Below, one piece after another: positions 26,581 through 32,177 of a stretch of DNA of 64,000 bases. Each line of letters starts with the position of its first letter. The first letter of the stretch is position 1. A model generated the notes under the pieces. It ran no database searches. It was given only the letters and a program-made list of their open reading frames with translations, and had not been told where the DNA came from. Origin of the DNA: Planctomycetes bacterium TMED75 (GTDB lineage: Bacteria > Planctomycetota > Phycisphaerae > Phycisphaerales > SM1A02); NCBI GenBank assembly GCA_002171655.1, contig NHEC01000120.1, positions 20,503 through 84,502 on the forward strand, written 5' to 3'. Position numbers and translations under genes: made by a program.

Positions 26581-27417
26581 ATGATTCATCCCTCAGCGAT
26601 GCGATGTGTCTTTCTGGTGCTTTGTACCGTGGTTGCGTCCTGCAGCACGGTCTCGGGATCCGGGCGAACTCAGGTCAACTTTTACTCCGCTGCCGACGAT
26701 GCACGAATCGGGCAGCAGGCCTGGACTGAAGTGCTCTCGGATCCGCTGGTCCTCAAACAGGGTCCGAAGGTCGAACGTGTGCAACGAATTGGCAACCGGA
26801 TCGTCGCGGCGGCACGCCGTCTCCATCCCGAAATCGCGGAGAACTTCCAGTGGGAATTTGCGGTTCTAGATGATCCGGACCAGATCAACGCGTTTGCCCT
26901 GCCGGGGGGGAAATTCGCCGTCTATACCGGGATGCTCAACTTTACCGAAGGTGATGACGACATGCTCGCCGCGGTGCTTGGACACGAAGCTGCGCACGTC
27001 ACCTCTCGTCACGGGACGGAGCGTCTCACTCAGGTGACGATTACCCGGGTGGGATTGGATGCCACCAATGTCTTCGTTCTGGGGGACCTTGACCCAGGTG
27101 ATCGGGAGCTTGTTCTCCAGGCGATCGGTGCGGGTACCAACGTCGGGGTACTTCTTCCTTTCAGCCGGTCTCATGAATGCGAGGCTGATGTACTGGGGCT
27201 CATGATTGCCGCGGATGCCGGATACCGTCCTCAGGCTGCGTTGCGACTCTGGGAGCGAATGGGTGCGCGTGGTTCGGTCGGAGCGCCCGAGTTCATCTCA
27301 ACCCATCCCAGCTACCAGACCCGCATCCAACTGCTTGATGATGCAATGGCCCCTGCGCAGCGCCTCTACGATTCTCGGGAGGCACTTGGGGACCTTCCGT
27401 CCCGGATGGGCGGATAA
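26581..27417 (+). CDS. M48-family metallopeptidase lipoprotein
   Basis: Start at MIHPSAMRCVFLVLCTVVASCSTVSG (lipobox VASC); zinc motif GHEAAH plus HECEAD; INAFALPGGKFAVYTGML. Confidence 0.92.
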   Translation: MIHPSAMRCVFLVLCTVVASCSTVSGSGRTQVNFYSAADDARIGQQAWTEVLSDPLVLKQGPKVERVQRIGNRIVAAARRLHPEIAENFQWEFAVLDDPDQINAFALPGGKFAVYTGMLNFTEGDDDMLAAVLGHEAAHVTSRHGTERLTQVTITRVGLDATNVFVLGDLDPGDRELVLQAIGAGTNVGVLLPFSRSHECEADVLGLMIAADAGYRPQAALRLWERMGARGSVGAPEFISTHPSYQTRIQLLDDAMAPAQRLYDSREALGDLPSRMGG

Positions 27418-28130
27418 CAGATCGCACCAAGGTTGCTGCGGAAGGCTTCGGCACGATCCGGATGCACCAGGACCTCGAACGACCGGTCCAGGAACAAGTG
27501 AAGAAAGCGACCGCAGTCGGCGACCGATTCCCGATTGAGCCCTCCTCCGTGAGTCGCGCCTCCGTGCACAAGCTGGCATCGCAACTGATAGACGCGGTAG
27601 AGAAGAAGTCGATCGAGTGCGGATTCAGTCTGCCCCTCATCCAGGTAGTGCCTGCCCTTTCTCGGCAGGTTATGCCAGGTCTCCTCCTCTTCTTCTTCGC
27701 CTTCCGCAAGCCCACGCCAGAAGTAATGGTCGAGGTAGACGTTGTCGAAAAGTCGTTCCGCCAGTTCCCGATGTTCCTTCAACAGTGCCTGGTAGGCACC
27801 AAGACCGTGCAGTTCATCCAGGCTGGTGGCCCCGACGATGAAGTCGCGAACACTGCGAATGTCCTTGGCCGGATGGTTGGTTTCCTGATCCCATTGACCA
27901 TAGAGGGCGTTGAAGGAGATCCAGAGGAAGATCAGCTGGTCATCCAGGGCATCGGTGCCAGACTCCTTGGCGACAACCTGTGCCCGGTGGAGCCACGAAC
28001 ATGCACGGTGAATCCTGATCGCCAGTTCCGTGTAGTCACCGACATCCTTGCAGGGCATCTCCTGCCAGCGCCGTTTGTATTCACGAGCCGATGGCAGTTC
28101 GGGATCGATGCAGTTGGTGATCTCGTTCAT
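27366..28130 (-). CDS. HEPN-like (Apea-type) domain protein
   Basis: Start MNEITNCIDPELPSAREYKRRW at 28130; LIFLWISFNALYGQW and LLLYRVYQLRCQLVHGGATHGG (Rx4H) typical of HEPN domains. Confidence 0.7.
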   Translation of the reverse strand: MNEITNCIDPELPSAREYKRRWQEMPCKDVGDYTELAIRIHRACSWLHRAQVVAKESGTDALDDQLIFLWISFNALYGQWDQETNHPAKDIRSVRDFIVGATSLDELHGLGAYQALLKEHRELAERLFDNVYLDHYFWRGLAEGEEEEEETWHNLPRKGRHYLDEGQTESALDRLLLYRVYQLRCQLVHGGATHGGGLNRESVADCGRFLHLFLDRSFEVLVHPDRAEAFRSNLGAICYPPIRDGRSPSASRES

Positions 28131-28209
28131 GGCGTGTGGAATGCTATCACGATGCGGGTATGCTGCGCGTTTGCTCAAGTGCATTTGAACTGCAGTCCTC
28201 AGGGTGCTC

Positions 28210-29166
28210 ATGCCATTCACCGGCGAACAACTTCATGCCCTCTCCGGCAGGTCCGAAGGCTGGCTGGACATCTGGCACCAGCTCTGGGAGGCGCTCTACG
28301 ACCGACTGCACGGCATGATCATCAACGGTATTCCGAACGATCCGGACACCTGGTCACTCAACAGCCACTATCGAATGCTGGTCGATACGGCTCGAGCGCA
28401 GGATTTCATCGCTGAGTTGCTCGAGGATTATCGCCGACGTGCCGAACTGGGAAGTCTGCTCGCAGATTTCGAAGGTGCGCCCGAAAAGGTACTCCCTTAT
28501 CTGGCAGCACCACGAATCGTTCGCGGGCGTGCTCTTGATTTCATCGCCCGAAACAATCGGATGGGAATCACCGGCATGCCGAGCTCCCTCGAAGATGCTC
28601 CGCGAGTCCGACTGGTCGAAGCTGAGGAATTCGAAACCCACTCCGCTTCACCCGAAACGGAGTCCCCGTCCTTTGGAAACCTGGATCCCACGCAACTTCC
28701 AGTCGCCATCGCGTGGGACAGTCAGGCCGGAATCGATGCACGCGTTCGCATGGCAGCCTTGCAGTGCTGGCCTCGAATTGATCCTGCGCAGGACGGTCGT
28801 GATCGACTTGAACGTGATCTTCGTGATCGGGTATCACCCGAGGAACCCCGCGATGAGATCGAGACTCTCCTGGATCAGCATCGCAGTGCGCGTGGTCGAA
28901 TCGCAGACCGGCTGCAGGCAATCGATTCCGAGATCCAGTCCGCTCCCGGGATGCACGCTCCTCGTCGCCGGGAGCTTGATGGTCAGCGGGTGATGCTTCA
29001 GGCGGACCTGCTTCTGCAACCGCTCACGCGAGAACAGGTGCAGCGGCTGCTTGGACTTCCCAGCCCTGATTCGGCGTACCAACAGCTTTCCCGCTATCGA
29101 AAGGCCTTCGCGGAGCTTTTTCCCACCCTTCGAACCACTCTGGAGCGGGCGGGGGGGGCCGCATGA
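28210..29166 (+). CDS. Divergent sigma-70-like protein (region 2-like N-terminus, region 4 HTH-like C-terminus)
   Basis: N-term FIAELLEDYRRRAELGSLLADFEGAPEKVLPYLAAPRIVRGRALDFIARNNRM resembles sigma region 2; C-term LTREQVQRLLGLPSPDSAYQQLSRYRKAFAELFPTL resembles region 4. Confidence 0.55.
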   Translation: MPFTGEQLHALSGRSEGWLDIWHQLWEALYDRLHGMIINGIPNDPDTWSLNSHYRMLVDTARAQDFIAELLEDYRRRAELGSLLADFEGAPEKVLPYLAAPRIVRGRALDFIARNNRMGITGMPSSLEDAPRVRLVEAEEFETHSASPETESPSFGNLDPTQLPVAIAWDSQAGIDARVRMAALQCWPRIDPAQDGRDRLERDLRDRVSPEEPRDEIETLLDQHRSARGRIADRLQAIDSEIQSAPGMHAPRRRELDGQRVMLQADLLLQPLTREQVQRLLGLPSPDSAYQQLSRYRKAFAELFPTLRTTLERAGGAA

Positions 29167-30216
29167 GCCGCCTTCGTCTGCTGGAAACTTCAGAGTTATT
29201 CGGAGCTACTCCAGTCAGAAACCGGAGAGCCACGGCGTTCATGCCGGGGAGTCTTCCCGGATTTCTCCAGCAGCCTGCTGCGGGCGGAGTGGACGGTTGC
29301 TCAGGAAAGGTGGATCCATTTGCCACGTGATGACTCATCAATCAACGACGCCATTGGGGCTCTGCAGAAGCGTCTGGCTGCCGCCGGGGATCCGATCGAG
29401 CAGCTGTTCTCCGCCGCCCGGCTCTGTGCCTGGGGTGAAACGGAGGTCTTCAGGTCCTGGCCTTCACTCATCGGCAGTCCGGCGGCCAGCGAACTGCATC
29501 CGCGACTGGGTGCGCTCTGCCTCGCTCTTCTTCGTCGGCTCCGATCCCAGGATGGTGCAACCCTCGCCGCAACCCTCATCGAATGCCAGGACGTCTGCAG
29601 TCTGCTCACCGCCGACCGAGTGCATGGGAGGCTGCTCCAGCAGCTGCATGATCTGCTCGCCGGTGTGGTCCATGAATGCGACTCCGTGCTGCTTGATGAC
29701 GAGGCCGCGGAATTACTGCATGAGTTCACTCAATCCCAGCACCTCGACCTCCTGCCGGCTGAGTGGGTGCTTGGATCGGTTCGTCACCCACTCGGAGCGA
29801 CTGCTCGGATGGAGCTTGCACGCGTGGCCGGATCCTGCACCCCCCCGGTTCGCGAGGTCTGTGCCGTACCTTCATTCGAGGGAGAGCTGGTCTTTGACGG
29901 TGGACGTCCCAGTACCCGGATGATGTCTTCCTTCGGTAAGCGGCGTGGAATGATTCTGTGCAGTGATGGTTCCAAGGCGGTGGTCAGAGCGGTGCTTGAA
30001 TCCGACTGGCGCATCAGCGTCGAATTCGATGCCGATTTGGTCTGGTGCGGTCGTATTGATCGAGTTCGTCTGGGAGCACTTCCCGCGGAGGCGCTTGATG
30101 AGGATCGTGACACTTGGGTGGCATCGCTTTCCGAGTACGGTCTGGACACGCAGACGAAGCTGGTGGGGCAGCCGATCATGGTGTGTCTCTCAAACGGCGA
30201 GCGTTTTTCGATGTAA
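29163..30216 (+). CDS. Hypothetical protein, coupled to the sigma-like gene; open frame probably interrupted by a 1-nt frameshift near 29246-29249
   Basis: ATG at 29163 overlaps the upstream TGA (ATGA) and encodes MSRLRLLETSELFGATPVRNRRATAFMPG...; the remainder (GVFPDFSSSLLRAEWTVAQERWIHLPRDDSSINDAIG... to 30216) is in another frame. The ORF track gives only the TTG-initiated 29320..30216 part. Confidence 0.5.
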
Positions 30217-30224
30217 CCACGCAT

Positions 30225-32177
30225 GTGGAGGCCGTTGTCACGACTGGAGCACCACTGAAATCGATTGATCAGCCAGCCACGCCCGGTTGGGGGTGGGCGC
30301 TGTCTCATACCCCCGAGCAGTTGCGCCACCTCGTGGAACGCTCTCGGGCACGACTCTGGGTCGAAGCACTGTTGCGTGCTGCCGATGAACGACTGGATGG
30401 AAGTCTGGGGTTGTCGCGTTCCGACCGAAACGTCGAACCACAGTGGCTTCCAGGCCAGGTGGTTCCGGTCGTCGGAGCACGATCCGCCGAAACCGGTCAG
30501 TTGGGGGTCCTGCACCTGGAACGATCGCAGGCCCCTCTTGCTGGTGCAAGCATCGAGCGGTCCAACGCCAACGGAGAATCCTCGGAAGTCCTCGATGCGA
30601 TCCAGCGGGGCATCGCCCTCGCGTGTACTCCTCTGGCGGAGTTTATGCCGGAGGCACTGCGGCCGCGTGCGCAACTGGATTTGAGCGGCCTGCCTGCGGG
30701 TGACAGCATGGCGTTGCCGGCAGCGATGGCCACAGTGCTCTGGATTTTCGGCTCGCACTGGCCCGCAGATCTGATTGCATCTGGTGGAATCGACCTTGCC
30801 CGCTCCCAGTTCTCGCCCGTGCCTCGCCAGACCCTGGCTGCGAAGGCGCGCGCCGCCCGGGCATGGGGATACCGGCGAATCGCTCTGATCGAGGATCGCG
30901 ATGCACCCTCGATCTCGACCCTTGAAGGACTTCAAGTGGTTCGGATGCCTGCCGAGCCGGGTGCGCTCCCGCTCGCCCTGGCGTGCTTGAATGGAGTGGA
31001 CCTCGATGAGGAGCGGATTGCCTGTGCGCTGGCGGTGTTCGACCTGCGTGTCGGTCGGTCTGGTCCCGGAGTCATGCACCGGGTGCTCGAGGTGACCGAA
31101 CCAATGCTCGAACTCGATTCCCCGATCATCCGTCATATCGCCCACGACATGCGCTCTCGCGCACAATTGCACGCTGGGCGAACTGAGGATGCCAGCGACT
31201 CATTGCATCGTGCAGATGAGCTTCACGGACGTGGATCGCTTCCCGACGGTCGTCTTCGTGACATCCTCCGTTACCAACAACCCGCCCATCGTTCGATCGT
31301 GCACGTCGACCTTGGGGACTGGTCCGATGAACTGCCCGCGCACCGTCAGGTTGACCGACTCATCGATGAATTGGATGGACTCTGGTCGACGAAGCACGAG
31401 CAACTGATGCGGTTGTTTCTCGCCAACACTCGTGCACGAAGGCAGGAATACCTTGGTCGACTCCATTCGGATTCCGATCGTCTGGATCGTGCCTGGTCCG
31501 ATCTCATCCATAATCAGTCGGACTGGGAGCAACTGCTCGACTCCTATGCTGTACTCGAGCTCCAACTGCCCGATACCAGCCGTGCGCGAGTCGAGAATCA
31601 ACTGCTCGACGTGGCGTTCAGTCGTTTTCAGCTTGATGGCTCGATTCCTTCGGAGTGGCTTGCGGTCGTCGACGGACTTCGTGCACAAGCTTCTCCTCTG
31701 GTTGAAGCGGAGGATTCAGTGCTGGCCTTCGAGCAGGCCGGGCGGGTGATTCACATCGGGGGCAATGGATTCGATGCGATCGCCCGGCTCAAGCGCCAGC
31801 TCGCCCTGGATCGCCCCGAACTTCCCGAGGAAGTCGAGTCAGTGCTTGATTCCACTCGTTGCCACGTCACCGGCACTCTGGCCTATCCATGGTTCCACTG
31901 GTTGGAGCTGATCGCATTGCGGGCACAGGCCCAAGGTCGACATCTGCCATTGCCGGGCGATGAGGGATCCTCATCCTGTGAATCGGCCTGGGGGTTCGTT
32001 CTGCGCGAGGATTCAGGAATCACCTCACTCATCGGGCTCCGCTCCTCCCAGATCCTGACCCAACTGGGCCGAGCCTTTCCTCGAATCTCTTCTCCGCCCG
32101 CGGACTCTTCACTCGGCAGGCTGTTCGCTGATCTCGCCTCGAATTCTCAGGCTCTCTTCAGACGAACGCCCTATTGA
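30225..32177 (+). CDS. Protein with Lon-protease-like (S16) domain, no ATPase domain seen
   Basis: From GTG 30225 (ORF track 30114..32177). AQLDLSGLPAGDSMALPAAMATVLWIFGSHWPADLIASGGIDLARSQFSPVPRQTLAAKARAARAWGYRRIALIED aligns by eye with the Lon proteolytic domain (GPSAGIAM...[34 protein letters not shown]). Confidence 0.55.
   Translation: MEAVVTTGAPLKSIDQPATPGWGWALSHTPEQLRHLVERSRARLWVEALLRAADERLDGSLGLSRSDRNVEPQWLPGQVVPVVGARSAETGQLGVLHLERSQAPLAGASIERSNANGESSEVLDAIQRGIALACTPLAEFMPEALRPRAQLDLSGLPAGDSMALPAAMATVLWIFGSHWPADLIASGGIDLARSQFSPVPRQTLAAKARAARAWGYRRIALIEDRDAPSISTLEGLQVVRMPAEPGALPLALACLNGVDLDEERIACALAVFDLRVGRSGPGVMHRVLEVTEPMLELDSPIIRHIAHDMRSRAQLHAGRTEDASDSLHRADELHGRGSLPDGRLRDILRYQQPAHRSIVHVDLGDWSDELPAHRQVDRLIDELDGLWSTKHEQLMRLFLANTRARRQEYLGRLHSDSDRLDRAWSDLIHNQSDWEQLLDSYAVLELQLPDTSRARVENQLLDVAFSRFQLDGSIPSEWLAVVDGLRAQASPLVEAEDSVLAFEQAGRVIHIGGNGFDAIARLKRQLALDRPELPEEVESVLDSTRCHVTGTLAYPWFHWLELIALRAQAQGRHLPLPGDEGSSSCESAWGFVLREDSGITSLIGLRSSQILTQLGRAFPRISSPPADSSLGRLFADLASNSQALFRRTPY

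Follow-up and report, generated by a model that had tools for sequence, protein, structure and literature searches.

The locus described here lies in a 64,000-nucleotide (nt) stretch of contig NHEC01000120.1 from Planctomycetes bacterium TMED75 (the window), belonging to a genome bin of 2.98 Mb. It comprises a minus-strand gene for a predicted HEPN-type protein and three plus-strand genes, M1, M2 and M3, of which M1 encodes a sigma-factor-like protein and M3 a predicted Lon-type peptidase. M1-M2-M3 beside the HEPN gene apparently constitute a conserved gene set of marine planctomycetes without earlier description. No description of this gene composition was found in the open-access literature searched, subscription papers being outside the search. 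The features of the locus, by position in the window, are the following.

27366-28130, minus strand: HEPN-type gene, 254 amino acids from the ATG at 28130
27564-27581, minus strand: R-x4-H motif RCQLVH, the HEPN ribonuclease signature, read directly
28131-28209, no strand: divergent promoter region of 79 nt, common to the HEPN gene and M1
28141-28164, in the HEPN-M1 gap: conserved block ATGCTAnCA-N6-GnGTATGCT
28210-29166, plus strand: M1, sigma-factor-like protein of 318 amino acids, region-2-like at about residues 50-117 and region-4-like at residues 252-302
29163-29330, plus strand: 55-codon open reading frame (ORF) opened by an ATGA overlap, in a frame different from that of M1; not M2
29214-29239, plus strand: promoter-like element GTCAGA-N16-CGTT in the M1-M2 gap
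29320-30216, plus strand: M2, 298 amino acids, TTG start
30225-32177, plus strand: M3, 650 amino acids, GTG start; predicted ATPase-less Lon-type serine peptidase domain, then a C-terminal helical domain
30705-30707, plus strand: predicted catalytic Ser161 (GDS), aligned to the GDS serine of LonB structure 1xhk
30843-30845, plus strand: predicted catalytic Lys207, aligned to the NEKIEAA lysine of 1xhk
32163-32174, plus strand: C-terminal tail R-T-P-Y of M3; -R-x-P-Y terminates every full-length homologue

The preliminary description of this DNA had recognised the four genes, their strands, the 79-nt gap, the HEPN motif and the Lon core, all of which stand. Direct reading confirms a minus-strand gene with the motif RCQLVHGG, divergent from M1 at 79 nt, and M2 and M3 do lie downstream of M1 on the plus strand. 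What does not hold is the start of M2, which had been placed at an ATGA overlap with M1: the ATGA at 29163 opens the 55-codon ORF in another frame. The TTG start at 29320 is preceded by an AAGGTGG-type ribosome-binding site, and the M1 stop is separated from the M2 start by 142-169 nt in the nearest relatives too. The 55-codon ORF occupies the position held at other loci by a further gene, c47. Its protein sequence is not conserved and conservation is confined to a DNA motif inside it; it was rejected as a conserved peptide. Homologues were found for HEPN, M1, M2 and M3 alike, and the ratio of nonsynonymous to synonymous substitution rates (0.06-0.28 in close pairs) reveals purifying selection on all four genes. 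None of the four proteins matched a family in Pfam, NCBIfam or PADLOC, no significant match was obtained by PDB sequence search with HEPN, M1, M2 or c47, and Rfam yielded no RNA family within the island.

Co-occurrence of the genes had been set beforehand as a refutation test of the grouping. The genes do co-occur: within a sample of the order, M1 and M3 are present in the identical 8 of 151 genomes, and the block is also found in other families. M2 is present in 16 of 181 genomes of the family. The order M1-M2-M3 is constant in four genera of this Phycisphaerales family (g1, g13, g11 and g98), and the closest named relatives of M3 are from marine Phycisphaerales/Phycisphaerae genome bins. The block holds together in different surroundings, since the flanking genes differ between two genus groups: one has an efflux pump, HD, M48, a sulfatase, a Mur-type ligase and LeuRS, whereas the other has glycogen phosphorylase, an amidohydrolase and a UDG-like gene. 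In the window, the M48 peptidase gene (26599-27417) and the HEPN gene are convergent and overlap at their 3' ends by 52 nt (27366-27417). Outside the family, all three members were recognised by profile at locus L094 (family f17), with gene ends overlapping by 4 and 1 nt. At L091 and L092, both from one f17 genome, M3 was identified by profile and M1 by position, and M2 by profile at L091. At L095 (f23) a profile identified M3 and BLAST identified c47, with M1 and M2 assigned by position, while L093 (f43) holds M2-M3 only, at a contig end. Genes for a MoxR-like AAA protein and a DUF2201 vWA protein lie directly upstream of the f17 trio, divergent from it (L094:3-2281). No relatives of M3 were detected in either the plasmid or the phage collection.

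A profile of 15 M3 proteins was compared with the PDB using hmmsearch. The LonB structure 1xhk was matched with E=3.1e-6, and three more LonB chains with E of about 0.003. Ser161 and Lys207, the residues aligned with the catalytic pair of 1xhk, are invariant in two M3 alignments, one of 15 family sequences and one of 12 diverse sequences. The profile match and the aligned, invariant dyad bear out the Lon S16-like core noted earlier. The Walker A motif GxxxxGK[ST] is absent from every M3 examined, and no AAA family match was obtained; lacking a P-loop, M3 would thus be an ATPase-less Lon-type protease. On these sequence comparisons M3 is predicted to be an S16/Lon-type peptidase with a Ser-Lys dyad, and not an ATP-dependent LonA or LonB. 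Judged from the sequence, its C-terminal half is helical in appearance. The M3 of L094 lacks the -R-x-P-Y end because the contig stops there. This ending, of which the -PY is also present in an operon described below (L096), could be a docking or autoinhibitory tail.

The sigma region 2/4-like ends proposed for M1 received weak and consistent support, below the detection threshold of Pfam. In profile-profile comparisons with sigma factors taken from related genomes, the C-terminus of M1 falls on sigma region 4 (score 30.3, P=0.0019). Its N-terminal half, which contains an A-x-D-F-I motif, falls on region 2 (score 21.9, P=0.033). Both regions occur in the correct order along M1 and score above every control: reversed M1 and four other families scored at most 18.5, and 30 column-shuffled versions of M1 gave a probability of at most 0.5%. 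The AlphaFold2 model of M1 has a predicted local distance difference test (pLDDT) score of 78. Its best PDB match in Foldseek is an extracytoplasmic function (ECF) sigma factor (E=2.2), with sigma-E region 2 among the next matches, none of them significant. Moreover, the positional counterpart of M1 in L095 matches PRK12519 as well as SigK (E=0.0017) and Sigma70_r2 (E=0.084), the latter two below the curated cut-offs. M1 is probably a divergent ECF-like sigma factor; the resemblance is weak and several independent tests agree. Alternatively, M1 might be an ordinary helix-turn-helix regulator or a structural protein, and the trio a non-transcriptional protease complex, as the pLDDT and Foldseek values and the lack of a significant sigma family match for the window M1 would allow. 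We consider this unlikely in view of the two ordered alignments above all controls, the SigK match in L095, a canonical ECF sigma factor at the same position in L096 and the ECF-like promoter element described next.

The M1-M2 gap contains the pattern GTCAGR-N16-YGTY with identical spacing in all six nearest loci, 101-122 nt 5' of M2. Among these loci the mean pairwise identity is 0.94 and 0.78 in the two blocks, compared to 0.37 in the spacer and 0.34-0.38 in the flanks. A pattern of this type appeared in 0 of 5000 shuffled sets, a figure that is not a strict probability, given the kinship of the loci and a pattern first noticed by eye. In form the element is similar to ECF promoters whose -10 is of the CGTC type. 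The block in the HEPN-M1 gap is present as a single copy at each of the six nearest loci and absent from the rest of their 152 kb, which is consistent with compact divergent promoters. The HEPN transcript would be nearly leaderless if its -10 element were TAGCAT.

The AlphaFold2 model of M2 (mean pLDDT 88.5) has some ten helices in its N-terminal part and ends in a small alpha/beta domain. Comparison with the PDB gave no match at E<=0.001, the best having E=0.24 and a probability of 0.25. M2 is thus confidently modelled as a predicted new fold without a PDB counterpart. Its place between M1 and M3 is constant across loci. Because of this constant place between sigma factor and protease, we infer that M2 is a candidate anti-sigma factor, tether or cleaved substrate.

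The best start of the HEPN gene is the ATG at 28130, where its homologues begin, and nearly all 23 rows of the HEPN alignment retain R(C/G)QLxHG. No curated HEPN family in Pfam, NCBIfam or PADLOC matched the gene. HEPN lies within about 2 kb of the trio, on either side, in each of the 14 same-family loci whose contigs extend far enough. It is divergent from M1 in g1 and g13, and convergent beyond the UDG-like gene in g11 and g98; in these two genera a UDG-superfamily gene (L054:13799-14530) follows M3 and lies between it and HEPN. The trio loci outside the family, often on short contigs, showed no adjacent HEPN gene. With 14 of 14 loci inside the family and none found outside, HEPN is, by its gene neighbourhood, a family-specific partner of the trio; by its motif it is a predicted RNase.

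HEPN could also be a chance neighbour of the trio with a role of its own. Its family is more widespread than the trio, being present in 32 of 151 genomes, and the HEPN gene tree resolves neither one versus two origins of the linkage nor whether trio-linked copies form a single clade. However, this explanation is improbable given the 14 testable family loci, the conserved intergenic block shared with M1 and the distribution of HEPN, which is found in 8/8 genomes with the trio versus 24/143 without it (hypergeometric 1.9e-6, uncorrected for kinship). Of the two possibilities left by the preliminary description, linkage and chance, the data point to a link stronger than chance within the family.

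The gene c47, encoding about 200 amino acids, is inserted after M1 in the g11 loci, mostly with a 4-nt overlap. Its copies at L054:9717-10331 and L095:10585-11157 carry the motifs HVxKHV-x3-R-x2-RW and Y-x-LR. It has no match in Pfam, NCBIfam or PADLOC, and was found only with the trio; c47 is possibly an effector. A c47 match in genome G502 was rejected as an antisense artefact.

A planctomycete operon, L096, shows a similar layout. It begins with a Pfam-recognised ECF sigma factor, followed by a 341-amino-acid protein and a 1007-amino-acid protein, the latter with an RsrA-like anti-sigma stretch (E=0.0097), Lon_C (E=0.001) and C-terminal repeats TPR-like in appearance. Two H-x3-C-x2-C motifs are visible by eye in the anti-sigma stretch. 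As at the window locus, the sigma factor comes first, the Lon protein comes last and ends in -PY, and overlaps are tight. Unlike the window locus, L096 has a canonical ECF sigma factor, an anti-sigma-like stretch fused to Lon and a middle gene unrelated to M2. L096 was rejected as an M3 homologue and is counted as a parallel, since wider profiles show M3 no nearer to it than to Lon in general. By analogy, it supports the logic of a sigma-Lon switch. The operon lies between Cas8g/Cas3g (type I-G CRISPR) and PtuA-PtuB of Septu (L096:2-11947), so that a sigma-Lon module may exist in a defence island. Relatives of L096 were absent from the plasmid collection.

We propose, at what we judge to be about even chances, that M1-M2-M3 is a regulated-proteolysis sigma switch, with HEPN as a linked RNase effector or accessory gene. 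The C-terminal helical domain of M3 would sense a signal or partner, and M2 would keep the ECF-like M1 inactive or tether it to M3. Upon activation, M3, acting as an ATP-independent Lon-fold Ser-Lys protease, would cut M2 or itself. The freed M1 could then bind core RNA polymerase and fire the internal promoter at 29214-29239, yielding more M2-M3, and act on further targets besides. HEPN, across the shared conserved promoter region, may serve as the linked RNase effector or accessory in the family. Conservation, gene order, the Lon domain with its dyad, the R-x4-H motif and the promoter-like element are the computed part of this scheme. A switch is the best reading of the M1/M3 co-occurrence, the trio order, the Lon match, the sigma alignments, the promoter-like element, L096 and the precedent of the Calp system, compared below. 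The interpretation offered in the preliminary description is supported in part: in the co-occurrence of the genes, the Lon-like and, weakly, the sigma-like assignment, and the HEPN link within the family; the ATGA start of M2 is abandoned.

Several observations weigh against the proposed switch. No sigma family passes the curated cut-off for M1, the M1 of the window matches no family at E<=5, and the Foldseek E-value of 2.2 is that of its best structural match. In L091, L092 and L095, outside the family, M1 is identified by position more than by sequence. When the promoter pattern was searched for across the genome, no clear regulon emerged, the matches being mostly without obvious pattern. 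M2 has neither a recognised anti-sigma fold nor a zinc-finger anti-sigma motif, M3 has no recognisable sensor domain, and L096 is only a parallel and not a proven homologue.

The locus might instead be a toxin-control or abortive-infection unit, in which HEPN (c47 elsewhere) would be an RNase toxin, M1/M2 a repressor or antitoxin, and M3 the protease that matures or destroys them when triggered. The adjacency of HEPN in every testable family locus, in two arrangements, would suit such a unit, as would the conserved 79-nt promoter region shared by the divergent HEPN and M1 genes, the restriction of c47 to the trio and the position of the parallel L096 operon, flanked by type I-G cas genes and by PtuAB of Septu. 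However, the trio occurs without HEPN outside the family, and of 143 genomes that lack the trio 24 have HEPN. Moreover, the family loci lie among housekeeping genes (LeuRS, glycogen phosphorylase), not in a defence island. We regard a toxin unit as rather doubtful.

Returning to the regulated-proteolysis switch, its protease resembles LonB/S16 peptidases in the Lon fold core and Ser-Lys dyad. It differs from them in having no AAA+ ATPase and in its partner domains. Another protease, Csx29, reportedly drives a transcriptional response by way of a sigma factor, as the proposed switch would. Csx29 (TPR-CHAT) works with a CRISPR effector (PMC10028731). Unlike the locus studied here, Csx29 is a CHAT and not a Lon protease and is RNA-guided, and there is no gene in common.

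The M3 locus is like Calp in encoding an ATPase-less Lon peptidase together with two partners, one of them sigma-like, and in the proposed release of the sigma factor by proteolysis. Regulated anti-sigma proteolysis is usually carried out by membrane proteases or ATP-driven machines. In the experimentally known Calp system, the Lon protease CalpL cleaves the anti-sigma factor CalpT and releases the sigma factor CalpS, an ATPase-less Lon domain thus performing regulated anti-sigma proteolysis in CRISPR immunity (PMC12751052). Unlike Calp, M3 has no SAVED domain, a general Pfam scan giving no family on M3, and its Lon domain precedes an unrelated helical domain at the C-terminus; the sigma factor is divergent, and HEPN and c47 are the partners. 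Calp is associated with type III CRISPR (Cas10), whereas no cas genes were found among the neighbours examined here. Membership in Calp fails on SAVED and CRISPR context, and by analogy the locus could still work in a Calp-like way. A bolder proposal, which we hold only tentatively, is a counterpart of Calp that operates independently of CRISPR. In it, an ATP-independent Lon protease gated by a signal would free a highly divergent ECF-like sigma factor from M2, the sigma factor would amplify its own protease via the internal promoter, and RNase effectors, HEPN at this locus and c47 in sister lineages, would form part of the response of a sigma-driven planctomycete defence or stress system. If the switch is true, its sensors, the clade of its sigma factor and the fold of its partner would all be new, and a few purified proteins would suffice for tests. 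A conserved operon that follows the Calp logic but lacks CRISPR and SAVED would then suggest that Lon-sigma switches are a wider class.

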